A DNA stretch of 64,000 nucleotides from Opitutia bacterium. Lineage in GTDB: Bacteria; Verrucomicrobiota; Verrucomicrobiia; Opitutales; Opitutaceae. A program made the translations under genes and the position numbers. Under the pieces are notes generated by a model. It was not told the origin of the DNA, ran no database searches, and worked only from the letters and a program-made list of their open reading frames with translations. The stretch lies in NCBI GenBank assembly GCA_016217545.1, contig JACRHT010000002.1, positions 248,001-312,000 of the forward strand, given 5' to 3'. Positions 33,375 through 48,805 of this stretch are shown here, in pieces. How positions within the stretch are numbered: position 1 is the stretch's first letter; each line of letters opens with the position of its first letter.

Positions 33375-33406
33375 TCTCTCAGCTCTAGACTCTCAGCTCT
33401 CAGCTT
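33375..33406. repeat. CTCAGCT short-period repeat, copy 1
   Basis: Three to four 7-base units of the form CTCAGCT, one degenerate (CTAGACT), directly upstream of the DUF1501 start. Copies of the same motif lie at 48301-48332 inside a gene and at 48779-48815 across a stop codon. Confidence 0.7.
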
Positions 33407-44706: not shown

Positions 44707-45765
44707 TCAGCGCGCGCCGCGATCAGCCACCAGGCGATCCACTTGCGCGCACACTTCCTCGACGGTGATCAAGTCCATCGCCCGCGCATCGTGCACGCGC
44801 TGGTGCCAGCCAGGTTGACTCGTGCCGAGGAATTGTCGCGCAGCGTCCGCGTAGCGATCCACGCAATAGCGCTGCTCCGGCCACGGTCCGGTCAACGCCG
44901 ACCGCGCCACCGCGTAAAGTCCCACAACCGGCGTGCCCACCGCCGCGGCCAGATGCACCGGTCCCGTGTCCGGCGCGAGCAGTCCTTCGGCGCCAGCGAG
45001 CACCGCCGCGAGCGTGCGCACGGAGGTGCGGCCCGCGAGATTGAGCGCCGGCACCGAGTTGTCGTTCAACCGCACGGCGACCGCGTCGGTCAACGCTTTC
45101 TCGCTCGGACTCGCGCCGCCCGTCAGCACGACGCGCCAACCGGCCATGCGCGCGACATGCTGCGCGACGGCCGCGTAGCGTTCGGCGCGCCAGTTGCGCT
45201 CCGGTTTGCTCGCGGCCGGATTGATCACGAAGTATTTCCCCTCGCCCACCAGCGCGCGCGCCGCCGCGTGGTCGGTCGAGCCGAGCGGCAGCACGAGACT
45301 CCGCACGTAATTTTCCGGCGCGACGCCGAGCGCGCCGGCGAACGCCAGGAAACCCTCCGCGAGGTGCTCGTCGCGATATGGCACGCGCTCGTTGACGAAC
45401 AGCCCGTGCAGGTCGCGACCGCGCCGCGCGTCGAAACCGATCTTGCGCGCCGCCGGCACGCACGCGTGCACGAGGTTGGCGCGGAAGCTCGCCTGCGCCG
45501 CGAGCAACACGTCGAAGTCGCGCCCGCGCAGCGTCCGGCGCAGCGCGAGGTAGTCGCCGGGCTTCATCGGACGCGGCACGGTGACGAACTCCACGCCATC
45601 GAGGCCGAGGAGCAGCTCGCGCGTGATGCCGCTCGTTATCCAAGTGACCGTCGCGTTCGGAAAATTCTTTCGCAGCGTTTGCACGAGCGCCGTCGCAAGC
45701 ACGACATCGCCAAGCGCCGAGAGGCGCACGAGACAAATGCGGCGCGGGGCGGCGGGCGGTTGCAC
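44707..45765 (-). CDS. Glycosyltransferase family 9 (heptosyltransferase-like)
   Basis: 352 residues. The GT9 opening ICLVRLSALGDVVLATALVQ includes the SALGD acceptor loop, and the C-terminal domain holds LAGRTSVRTLAAVLAGAEGL, then APDTGPVHLAAAVGTPVVGL, the D-T-G-P-H signature that binds the ADP-heptose-like donor. INPAASKPERNW is the conserved start of the second domain. GT9 enzymes add heptoses or related sugars to LPS inner core on the cytoplasmic face. The gene starts directly after the stop of the preceding GT9 gene, so both form a unit. Confidence 0.92.
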   Translation of the reverse strand: MQPPAAPRRICLVRLSALGDVVLATALVQTLRKNFPNATVTWITSGITRELLLGLDGVEFVTVPRPMKPGDYLALRRTLRGRDFDVLLAAQASFRANLVHACVPAARKIGFDARRGRDLHGLFVNERVPYRDEHLAEGFLAFAGALGVAPENYVRSLVLPLGSTDHAAARALVGEGKYFVINPAASKPERNWRAERYAAVAQHVARMAGWRVVLTGGASPSEKALTDAVAVRLNDNSVPALNLAGRTSVRTLAAVLAGAEGLLAPDTGPVHLAAAVGTPVVGLYAVARSALTGPWPEQRYCVDRYADAARQFLGTSQPGWHQRVHDARAMDLITVEEVCAQVDRLVADRGAR

Positions 45766-46755
45766 TCAGCTCGTCCGACCGGACGGAAACGGCACGCGCG
45801 CGGGGCCGCTCTCGGCTTCCATGCGACGCTTGAGGCGCGCAAACACGTCGCGCGCGGCGAGCAGGCGCAGATCGCCGACCGGCGCCTGGATGTAGAAATT
45901 CGATGTGCTCGTCAGCGGATACGGCCCGGACAACCGCGGATCGGTCGGACCGAAAATGCCGAGCGTCTTCACACCCAGCGCGGCGGCGAGTTGGAGCGGA
46001 CCGGTGTCATTCGAGATCACCCACTCGGCGTGCGTGATGAGCGCCGCGAGCGAGTTGAGGCTGGTGTTGCCCGTGAGGTTGACGAACGCACCGTCGGGGA
46101 ACGCCTCCTTGCAAGGCAGGTAGTGCGAGCCGGCCCACACGACCTTGCGGCCGGCCTCGCGCACGAGCAGCGACGAGAGCTGCGCGAACTCCGGCCAGCG
46201 TTTGTCGTCGCGGCGGCTCTCGGGAAACATGAGCACCGGACGCAGGCCGTTGCGCTTCTCCATGAACGAGAGGTTCAGCTTGCCGAAATCGCGGAAATGC
46301 AGCGGGCCGTGCAGCTCGGGCTGGGCGTCGACCGCCACGAGGAACTGCAGCAGCGTCTCCAGCGGGTGATGCGGGCCGGGCGTCGGCGCGGCGATTTTCT
46401 CCGAATAGAAAAACGTGGCGCCCTCGCGCGCGTCGGCGCGGCCGAGCTTTCGCTTCGCGTGCGTCCACTTCACCATCAAGCCGGAGCGAATCAGGCCCTG
46501 GAAATCCATCACGACGTCGAACTGCCGCGCACGCACCTCGCGCATGAGCTGAAAAAATCCGCGCACGCCGCCGAGCCGCCGGAACACGAAGATCTGGTCC
46601 ACCACGCTGCTCGAGCGCACGAGCGGGGCGAAGACGTCGCGCACGATCCACGACACGCGCCAGTCGGGCTGTTGGGCCTTCAGCGACGCCGTGACTTGCA
46701 AGCCGTGCACGATGTCGGCGAGCGAGGCGGGTTGGATGATGAGCAGTTCGCGCAT
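45766..46755 (-). CDS. Glycosyltransferase family 9 (heptosyltransferase-like)
   Basis: 329 residues from the ATG giving MRELLIIQPASLADIVHGLQ; an in-frame ATG 48 bases upstream is possible but lengthens the protein beyond the first strand. The acceptor loop reads PASLADIVH instead of the usual SxxGDxxx form. The second domain has PVLMFPESRRDDKRWPEFAQ and LTGNTSLNSLAALITHAEWV, then ISNDTGPLQLAAALGVKTLG and IFGPTDPRLSGPY, where most members have TGPMH; the histidine is replaced by glutamine. The fold is GT9, but the donor or mechanism may differ. First gene of the minus-strand pair; a 133-base region separates it from the divergent fusion gene. Confidence 0.87.
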   Translation of the reverse strand: MRELLIIQPASLADIVHGLQVTASLKAQQPDWRVSWIVRDVFAPLVRSSSVVDQIFVFRRLGGVRGFFQLMREVRARQFDVVMDFQGLIRSGLMVKWTHAKRKLGRADAREGATFFYSEKIAAPTPGPHHPLETLLQFLVAVDAQPELHGPLHFRDFGKLNLSFMEKRNGLRPVLMFPESRRDDKRWPEFAQLSSLLVREAGRKVVWAGSHYLPCKEAFPDGAFVNLTGNTSLNSLAALITHAEWVISNDTGPLQLAAALGVKTLGIFGPTDPRLSGPYPLTSTSNFYIQAPVGDLRLLAARDVFARLKRRMEAESGPARVPFPSGRTS

Positions 46756-46888
46756 GGAGCCGGTGGAGAAATTCCTTTCAACCACCCGCGAGTTAGGTTT
46801 CATCCGACTTCGCCGAAGGCAAATTCAATCACCTTGAGCCGGAAAAATTTGAGGCAATTTAGCGCATTCGACCATCGGCCCGCCCGAC

Positions 46889-48805
46889 ATGGTTAAGCTC
46901 GCGCTCCAACTCGCGGGCTGGGTCCTCGCTCACCTGCCTCTCGCGGCGCTCCGCGCGCTCACCTGGCTGGTCGCAGTCGCGTTCTACTACCTCGTGCCGA
47001 GCCGCCGCCGGCTCATGCACGCGAACCTGCACCACGCGTTCCCCGAACGCTCGTCGGATTGGCGGCGCGCGACCGCCCGCGAATGCATCCGGCGCTTCGT
47101 CGAGACGGCGTTCTACTCGCTCGCCACCCCGTATCTGAGCGCCGCGCGCGTGCGTGAGATCGTGCGTGGCACCGACTCGCTCCGCGCCGCGTTCGCCACC
47201 CACCGCGCGCAGCCGCAAGCCACGCTGTTCTGCTCGCCGCACTTCGCGCACTGGGAGGCGCAGACGGCGCTCTCGCTCCTCGTCGACGGGCCGTTCCCCG
47301 AGTTCGCCTCGATCTTCCGGCCGATCGACAACCCGTCCGCGGACGAGTTCATCCGCCAAACGCGCGAACGCTTCGGCATGCGCCTGCTGTCGCGCAAACA
47401 GGGCTTTCAGGAGGCGGTGAAAATCCTCCGCCGCCACGGCTTCATCGGCATCCTGCACGACCAGAACGCCGGCGACCAAGGCGCGCTCACGCTCCTCTTC
47501 GACCGCGTCTGCTCCACCACCGAGCTGCCCGGGCTTCTCGCCACGAAGTTCAACGCCGCGGTCTACGTCATCTACCCGCGCTACCTCGGCTTCTGGCGCG
47601 TCGAGCTGCACGTCGAGCGCATCGCGCATGAAGGCACGCCGGAGGGCGTGACGATCGCGCTCAACCGCTGGCTCGAGGACAAACTCCGCGCGGACGACAA
47701 CCAATGCACCTCGTGGCTCTGGGGTCACCAACGCTGGAAAAACCAGGACGCGCCGCACGCGCGCTTCCGCCTCGCGCAGAAGCGTAACTTCCTCGCCGAC
47801 GAACTCCGCCTGCGCGGCCTCGCCGCCCTGCCCCGCCGCACGCGCCTGTGGGTGCGTCTGCCCAACTGGCTCGGCGACGTCGTCATGGCGCTGCCGCTGC
47901 TCCGCGCGATCCGCGCCGCGCGGCCGGACGCCGAGATCACATTCATCGCCAAAGCGGCCTACCTGCCCCTCCTCGAAAAACTCTCCCTCGCCGACCGTCA
48001 TCGCGCGCTTCCAAAGACCGGCGGCCTCGCCTACTTCGCGGAGTTCCGCCGCGCCCGCGAGGAATTTCCCGACTGCTACCTGCTCTTCACGAACTCCCAG
48101 CGCGGCGACCTCGAGGCGTGGTGCACCGGCGCGCGCCAGCGCTTCGGCCTCGTGCGGCGCGGCCACCCGCGTCCGCTGCTCACGCACCGTTTCGAGCTAC
48201 CCGCCGACTACGACGAAGCGCAGAACCACCAGCTCGCGCTCTGGACGGATTTCCTCCGGCGCTTCGGCCTCGAGCAGCCCGCGGACTTATCGCCGCTGCA
48301 GCTCTCAGCTCTCAGCCCTCAGCTCTCAGCTTCTTCACCCATTGGTCTGATTTGCGGTTCGGAAAACACGCCCGAGAAGCGCTGGCCCGTGGAGCATTGG
48401 CGCGCGCTGATCGCTGCGTTGCCCGAGCGAAAATTCGCGCTCTTCGGCACGCCGAACGACCGCGCCATCACCGACGCCGTCGCCGCCGGCTTCGGCGAGC
48501 GCGTGGAAAATCTCGCCGGCAAGACGGGCCTCGTGGAGTTCGCCGGACGCCTCCAATCCTGCGCGCTCCTCGTCGCCAACGACACCGGCGGCATGCACCT
48601 CGCCAATGCGCTCGGCGTGCCGGTCATCGGTCTCTTCGGCCCGACGAATCCCGTGCGCACCGGCCCCGTGTTCGACGCGCCCCGCACGCTGCTCCAACCG
48701 CCCGGCTGCCCGCCGACCGGCGGCGGTTCGCTCGCCGACCTCACGCCGGAGACGGTCGTCGCTGCCGTCCGCGATCAACTCTCAGCTCTGGACTCTGGAC
48801 TCTAA
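46889..48805 (+). CDS. Fused lipid A acyltransferase (LpxL/HtrB-like) and GT9 glycosyltransferase
   Basis: 638 residues. Residues 1-300 form a lysophospholipid/lipid A acyltransferase: a membrane-anchoring N-terminal helix, RRRLMHANLHHAF, the catalytic HX4E in SPHFAHWEAQ (His118, Glu123), and ILHDQNAGDQGALTLLFDR. From about residue 318 a complete GT9 domain follows, beginning WVRLPNWLGDVVMALPLLRA and ending with VANDTGGMHLANALGVPVIG and LFGPTNPVRTGP. Thus one polypeptide could acylate lipid A and extend core sugar. Between the two Rossmann lobes of the GT9 part (about residues 470-485) is a serine-leucine rich stretch encoded by the CTCAGCT repeat, and a second repeat copy encodes the last residues and the stop. 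Divergent from the two GT9 genes. Confidence 0.9.
   Translation: MVKLALQLAGWVLAHLPLAALRALTWLVAVAFYYLVPSRRRLMHANLHHAFPERSSDWRRATARECIRRFVETAFYSLATPYLSAARVREIVRGTDSLRAAFATHRAQPQATLFCSPHFAHWEAQTALSLLVDGPFPEFASIFRPIDNPSADEFIRQTRERFGMRLLSRKQGFQEAVKILRRHGFIGILHDQNAGDQGALTLLFDRVCSTTELPGLLATKFNAAVYVIYPRYLGFWRVELHVERIAHEGTPEGVTIALNRWLEDKLRADDNQCTSWLWGHQRWKNQDAPHARFRLAQKRNFLADELRLRGLAALPRRTRLWVRLPNWLGDVVMALPLLRAIRAARPDAEITFIAKAAYLPLLEKLSLADRHRALPKTGGLAYFAEFRRAREEFPDCYLLFTNSQRGDLEAWCTGARQRFGLVRRGHPRPLLTHRFELPADYDEAQNHQLALWTDFLRRFGLEQPADLSPLQLSALSPQLSASSPIGLICGSENTPEKRWPVEHWRALIAALPERKFALFGTPNDRAITDAVAAGFGERVENLAGKTGLVEFAGRLQSCALLVANDTGGMHLANALGVPVIGLFGPTNPVRTGPVFDAPRTLLQPPGCPPTGGGSLADLTPETVVAAVRDQLSALDSGL
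48301..48332. repeat. CTCAGCT short-period repeat, copy 2 (inside coding sequence)
   Basis: Four consecutive 7-base units of CTCAGCT type, one with CTCAGCC, lie in frame within the fusion gene and encode the LQLSALSPQLSAS stretch. Units match copies at 33375 and 48779. Confidence 0.75.

Follow-up and report, generated by a model that had tools for sequence, protein, structure and literature searches.

In the window, a 64,000-nucleotide stretch of contig JACRHT010000002.1 from an Opitutia bacterium, a single gene encodes an LpxL-type acyltransferase (AT) and a WaaF-like GT9 heptosyltransferase in one polypeptide. Positions 46889-48805 of the forward strand form one open frame of 638 amino acids, which begins with ATG and contains no internal stop codon. 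The initial annotation, made from the DNA letters alone, had read this frame as one protein combining a lipid A-type acyltransferase with a GT9 glycosyltransferase. A Pfam search for the two domains confirmed this reading: PF03279 was found at residues 9-284 (E 2.3e-27, 96.4 bits against a gathering cut-off of 22.3) and PF01075 at residues 399-596 (E 2.8e-32, 112.4 bits against a gathering cut-off of 22), so neither is absent. Judging from the sequence and the predicted fold, we consider it probable, at roughly two chances in three, that the protein is a bifunctional inner-membrane enzyme for late lipid A acylation and heptose transfer. Acylation would thereby be coupled to the addition of a core sugar in one enzyme. 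Both protein families are well known, and what seems new is their fusion and the decay of the GT9 half. No description of the fusion was found in the literature searched, in which few subscription journals were covered, and domain databases may list the architecture. The main text of a paper on the verrucomicrobial outer membrane (PMC3422733) contains no lpxL, acyltransferase, heptosyl, waaF or fusion.

The N-terminal half resembles LpxL/HtrB and LpxM, such as A. baumannii LpxM (5kn7), in its fold, its HX4E motif, its N-terminal hydrophobic helices and its pathway. The HX4E motif previously noticed in this half was located at H118-E123, and E123 aligns with the Glu replaced by Ala in the LpxM E127A structure. 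Both residues are invariant in 41 aligned sequences, and among 118 proteins the motif is HX4E in 115, HX4D in two and QX4E in one. The top 19-residue hydropathy windows begin at residues 11-19, within the helices that probably anchor the protein in the membrane. Known LpxL/HtrB and LpxM proteins are single-domain proteins of about 300 amino acids, and the NCBIfam models of this group comprise 289-322 positions, with one of 454. Unlike them, the window protein carries a GT9 domain, and it scores far under their cut-offs, with 58 bits against 297.8 for LpxL/LpxP (TIGR02207) and 45.5 bits against 336.05 for LpxM (TIGR02208); the AT is therefore placed at the level of the PF03279 family only. The window genome has a single PF03279 match, and thus no second LpxL-type enzyme is seen there.

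The C-terminal half shares the GT-B fold and the D/K/D catalytic positions with WaaF (RfaF, heptosyltransferase II, 1psw) and WaaC (2h1h), which are known as separate proteins, whereas here the GT9 domain is covalently joined to an acyltransferase. Although the Pfam match covers part of the domain, the heptosyltransferase II model TIGR02195 spans residues 324-597 and the fold match to WaaF extends over 318-636, so the earlier description of a complete GT9 at residues 318-638 with its DTGGMH site, which starts at D565, is right. D330, K497 and D565 are invariant in the 41 aligned sequences. They correspond to three residues of HepI for which the replacements D13A, K192A and D261A are reported to lower the activity about 900- to 4700-fold (PMC5713226). 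The best model for the window GT9 is HepII (TIGR02195), with 105.9 bits against a curated cut-off of 134.6, and by best match the domain would be named more closely as nearest to heptosyltransferase II (WaaF). Among four fused GT9s from other families of the class, three pass the same cut-off (L157, L158 and L185, with 212, 196 and 186 bits), and the fourth, L281 from a probable Akkermansia, gave no HepII match in this search. As the window protein stays below the HepII and the LpxL/LpxM cut-offs, the exact steps are not fixed by these models.

An AlphaFold2 model built with 41 sequences reached a mean pLDDT of 91.7 and a pTM of 0.89 for the whole chain. VIA-align matched the model to A. baumannii LpxM with a Z-score of 25.8 (252 residues, 2.3 Å), to E. 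coli WaaF with 23.1 (305 residues, 2.6 Å, 28% identity) and to WaaC with 21.6. The GT9 fold (residues 317-632) was also matched, with a Z-score of 15.7, by chain 7wff_a of the plant chloroplast NDH-PSI supercomplex, indicating that the fold is common to a plant protein outside LPS synthesis. The weak spot of the model is the hinge between the GT9 lobes at residues 471-480, where the pLDDT is 62. The hinge contains one of three stretches of a 7-bp repeat of the CAGCTCT type; the others lie at 48776-48786, also inside the fusion gene, and at 33376-33405 of the window. L157, which belongs to another family, has a similar S/Q/L-rich insert, NSQLSTLNSQL, at this hinge.

Table 1. Features of the fusion gene and its neighbours, in window coordinates.
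Feature	Position	Strand	Basis
Second GT9 gene, nearest to HepIII/RfaQ models	44707..45765	-	Pfam, NCBIfam best model; under curated cut-off
Divergent neighbouring GT9 gene, HepI (RfaC)-like, 85-bp gap	45766..46803	-	Pfam, NCBIfam best model; under curated cut-off
Fused LpxL-type acyltransferase and WaaF-like GT9 heptosyltransferase, 638 aa	46889..48805	+	ORF, Pfam, NCBIfam, model, fold match
N-terminal hydrophobic helices, residues 2-35, likely membrane anchor	46892..46993	+	Model helices 2-15 and 18-35; hydropathy
Acyltransferase domain, residues 9-284	46913..47740	+	PF03279; A. baumannii LpxM, Z 25.8
HX4E catalytic motif HFAHWE (H118, E123)	47240..47257	+	Invariant in 41-sequence alignment A1; alignments to 5kn7 and 5knk
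Join between the domains, residues 285-317, short helix 302-309	47741..47839	+	Model, block pLDDT 83-96
GT9 (GT-B fold) domain, residues 318-636	47840..48796	+	PF01075; WaaF 1psw, Z 23.1 over 318-636
D330, counterpart of HepI catalytic base D13	47876..47878	+	Profile alignment with solved HepI
7-bp repeat, 4.7 copies, in frame, hinge between GT9 lobes	48299..48331	+	Repeat search; block 471-480, pLDDT 62
K497, counterpart of HepI K192	48377..48379	+	Profile alignment with solved HepI
D565, counterpart of HepI D261 (DTGGMH)	48581..48583	+	Profile alignment with solved HepI

Both neighbouring GT9 genes are located upstream of the fusion gene in divergent orientation, and a divergent GT9 neighbour is found at 58 of the 78 loci with enough flanking sequence (two further loci gave no data). 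The waaA gene (PF04413) is present in all 33 genomes tested, including the window genome, which also has an hldE-like kinase gene (G000:C9:48270-49208; E 6.7e-102 over positions 2-313 of 315; 341.5 bits, just under the curated 345). The neighbouring GT9 genes together with waaA and the hldE-like gene place the fusion in an inner-core LPS context. The fusion protein would probably work at the cytoplasmic face of the inner membrane. Its N-terminal half, with the membrane helices and the AT fold, would add a secondary acyl chain to a Kdo-lipid A precursor, with a presumed acyl donor and position. The C-terminal GT-B half would use ADP-heptose to add a heptose to the inner core, most likely the second one, in a WaaF-like step that follows the neighbouring HepI-like enzyme. 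Both reactions could then take place in turn on the same membrane-bound molecule.

In the sequences compared, the GT9 half has degenerated repeatedly whereas the AT is retained, and the N-lobe is usually kept; in many relatives, the GT9 half would have become a pseudo-enzyme or been reduced to its acceptor-binding lobe. Among 71 fused proteins of the order, 52 keep the WLGD motif, eight are full length without WLGD and 11 end after the N-terminal (acceptor) lobe, the latter in families f1, f3, f4, f16 and f23. Excluded from this count were G040, G086 and G107, in which contig ends truncate the match, G011, whose frame is interrupted at several points, G085, which encodes AT and GT9 as two ORFs, and G077, which has a weak remnant. 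Ten of the 11 halves end at profile positions 144-154 and one, L119, at position 123. Pfam detected GT9 in none of the five half proteins given to it, and the half domain is visible only against full-length relatives. In the 10 half proteins displayed, WLGD is always missing, RPD is always present and RFG is present in seven; two halves (L116 and L131) keep the Asp in the D330 column of the alignment. The label "half" requires seven changes on the best tree and at least three by starred branches, and the intact/non-intact label 12 changes and at least seven by starred branches, on a bootstrap that is not fully settled.

Four ATs of the same family (L122, L123, L125 and L129) carry C-terminal extensions of 101-131 amino acids. 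No GT9 remnant was found in these extensions by profile comparison (probability 3%) or by hmmsearch, and we did not count them as halves; one of their four genomes (G064) has hldE. L279 may bridge extensions of this type to the GT9 N-lobe. A link to the acyltransferase model PRK05906 (NF004569, 454 positions), which we take to be of the Chlamydia type and in which a hidden GT9 remnant was suspected, found no support, as five half-GT9 proteins match it only to profile position 332. In two species of one genus (L206, 942-2943, minus strand; L228, 1286-3596, plus strand), the GT9 is divided between its two lobes: AT and N-lobe share one ORF, and the C-lobe with KRWP and NDTG lies in an overlapping ORF. 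This split may be a gene fission or a frame error.

Because the GT9 is non-catalytic in many relatives, coupling of two reactions cannot be the sole reason for the fusion. That the acceptor lobe has been retained time and again hints at a further link between the halves, in which the lobe may dock the lipid for the AT. According to this alternative, which is compatible with the bifunctional reading and which we regard as quite possible, though somewhat short of an even chance, the GT9 N-lobe would serve mainly as a lipid-substrate docking module, with heptosyl transfer second and losable. It would account for halves that end near the same domain boundary in five families and for the number of changes that the label needs, and it agrees with the reported role of the N-lobe in binding the acceptor in GT-B enzymes (PMC5713226). 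Two genomes, G087 and G094, keep the fused N-lobe despite having neither a PF01075 match nor hldE. For the half domain, the comparison of G014 with G062 gives a pN/pS of 0.29 (0.16-0.51), which indicates constraint, though less than for the AT of the same pair (0.11). In decayed lineages, the N-lobe also diverges more quickly than the AT (61% against 83% identity between G003 and G009), and few independent truncations are certain. Moreover, only 14 residues remain after the AT in G090 and G069, indicating that GT9 can be lost wholly, which speaks against an indispensable docking lobe.

The bifunctional reading of the window protein assumes ADP-heptose as the sugar donor, as for WaaF and WaaC, and the association with hldE supports this assumption. 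Among genomes of at least 90% completeness, an hldE-like gene is present in 68 of 69 with an intact catalytic triad and in 22 of 35 with a broken or halved GT9. Fisher's test gives 1e-6 when related genomes are treated as independent, whereas in a tree-aware test about four pairs agree, none oppose and three are neutral (p = 0.125, not significant, direction consistent). With so few informative pairs on the tree, the Fisher values overstate the link. The count comprises 117 proteins without G135, which has separate AT and GT9 ORFs; its halves include L205, which a contig end truncates, and L206 and L228, whose C-lobe forms an ORF of its own, and hldE is present in each of these three cases. 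Completeness below 90% was taken by hand from tables, and all other genomes were set as passing. One genus weighs heavily, since genus g87 accounts for 13 (11 full length, two halves) of the 22 hldE-positive cases in which the GT9 is broken or halved. Near-complete genomes with halves have hldE in four of 10 cases and lack it in six. Under the stricter WLGD label, hldE is found in 45/45 intact cases against 6/16 others. G103, eroded by the WLGD label and intact by the triad, is an exception without hldE, and the incomplete genome G088 combines an intact triad with no hldE match. The hldE thresholds were chosen by us (at least 300 bits for the set of 33 genomes, E ≤ 1e-50 for those of 115 and 132), the curated cut-off of 345 bits being reached in 2/33, 4/115 and 36/132 genomes; for the set of 115, the next weaker group of matches has E-values of 2.6e-34 or worse, and at E ≤ 1e-3 all 33 genomes match the profile through other kinases. 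As E ≤ 1e-50 is also positive in four of 14 control genomes, including Synechococcus elongatus and Deinobacterium chartae, an hldE match is not proof of LPS heptose.

We consider it unlikely that the GT9 half is a heptosyltransferase for another position (HepI or HepIII) or, in some lineages, uses another sugar nucleotide. The window GT9 does score under the HepII cut-off; however, its best model and its best fold match are both HepII, and HepI and HepIII are the top-scoring models for the two neighbouring genes. In family f8, no hldE was found for L250 (G103) and L252 (G079), yet the two share 71% identity in the GT9 C-lobe and 40% in the AT, a pattern that would fit conservation for a different donor, and a changed sugar donor is possible for these two proteins. 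Against this, G079 has Asn at the D330 position, and the triad-intact GT9s of the other genomes go together with hldE almost without exception.

The fusion is widespread. With the fusion protein as query, matches were obtained in 110 of 115 relatives (any GT9 match counted too), and full-length fusions are spread across the order. A second search over 132 genomes with a fusion from another part of the class found fusions in 17 families (f29, f31, f32, f33, f35, f70, f72, f74, f75, f77, f79, f82, f85, f87, f89, f97 and f99), and in f32 two of the three genomes sampled are of 0.9 Mb. How widely the fusion occurs, a question the initial annotation had left open, can thus be answered: it extends throughout the order and to many families elsewhere in the class. 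In G105 (L177), a 1.0-Mb genome with hldE, the matches listed include a GT9-only frame of 361 amino acids with 40% identity.

AT and GT9 are adjacent open frames on the same strand at 13 loci, and the fusion probably arose from such a gene pair. In a quick AT tree of 75 hand-chosen rows, all 13 ATs of adjacent pairs fall into one clade, which includes one fused row (L226; SH-aLRT 100). Most remaining fused ATs group together, with ATs without detected GT9 (L122, L123 and L125) among them, and the fused rows L198, L199 and L201 stand outside this main group on weak branches. Four changes explain the fused and unfused states. The fusion therefore seems to be of early origin in the class and to have recurred at least once later.

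The join itself is real. As the initial annotation had noted, neither a frameshift nor a stop separates the domains, and the joined frame recurs at 94% identity in genome G007. All of the best 80 of 283 confirmed loci from a contig scan have full-length AT and GT9 in one frame; loci from the named strains Cephaloticoccus primus CAG34 and C. capnophilus CV41 are included. Between the window genome and G007, pN/pS is low across the AT (0.12), the GT9 N-lobe (0.16) and the GT9 C-lobe (0.14), indicating purifying selection on both halves. An assembly or sequencing artefact uniting two neighbouring genes, for which the 13 loci of other families with separate frames could be cited, is therefore rejected as extremely improbable, given the conserved joined frame and the constraint on both sides of the join.

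Decay of the GT9 half was also seen in genus g87, probably Akkermansia, for which all 17 genomes of the class sample were inspected. Thirteen of them encode a full-length fusion with Glu at the D330 position and Ser, Asn, Asp, Cys or Thr at the K497 position; the D565 position is still Asp, the surrounding DTG..H motif is gone and HX4E is intact. Three genomes (G206, G118 and G177) have an N-lobe-sized remnant, and G135 has AT and GT9 in two overlapping frames. As hldE is present in 14 of the 17 (it was not found in G206, G233 and G335), this genus probably produces ADP-heptose despite its broken GT9. In G214, a member of this genus and a probable Akkermansia muciniphila, the AT and a catalytically broken GT9 share one frame, which contains the only PF03279 match of the genome. 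An inner core with a single heptose is reported for Akkermansia (PMC13135019), and a broken second heptosyltransferase would fit such a one-heptose core. For A. muciniphila HW07, a study describes a single potentially new acyltransferase gene, 23.7% identical to LpxL, and reports that lpxM is missing, and acylation of Akkermansia lipid A is tied to host TLR4 signalling (PMC12527988). That gene, JFJHEM_01585, is LpxL-like, as is the single GT9-fused PF03279 match of G214; unlike for the G214 fusion, a GT9 part is not mentioned in the sections of PMC12527988 available to us. We infer that JFJHEM_01585 may be the G214 fusion gene.

For the class as a whole, including A. muciniphila, we tentatively propose, as the less probable side of an open balance, that the heptosyltransferase acceptor lobe has become a lasting part of the AT that holds Kdo-lipid A for acylation. 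With this function, the lobe would outlast a loss of the heptose pathway or of the donor lobe and persist as a pseudo-glycosyltransferase. The decayed lineages represent a natural experiment, in which sugar-transfer chemistry was lost and part of the domain was kept in many lineages, and they make it testable whether acceptor binding rather than catalysis ties the halves. Two steps of LPS assembly that are normally carried out by separate enzymes would be combined in one chain across many families of a class. If the proposal is true, the only LpxL-like enzyme of the gut commensal A. muciniphila would be such a hybrid. The fusion also offers a candidate identity for the so far unexplained late acyltransferase of Akkermansia.
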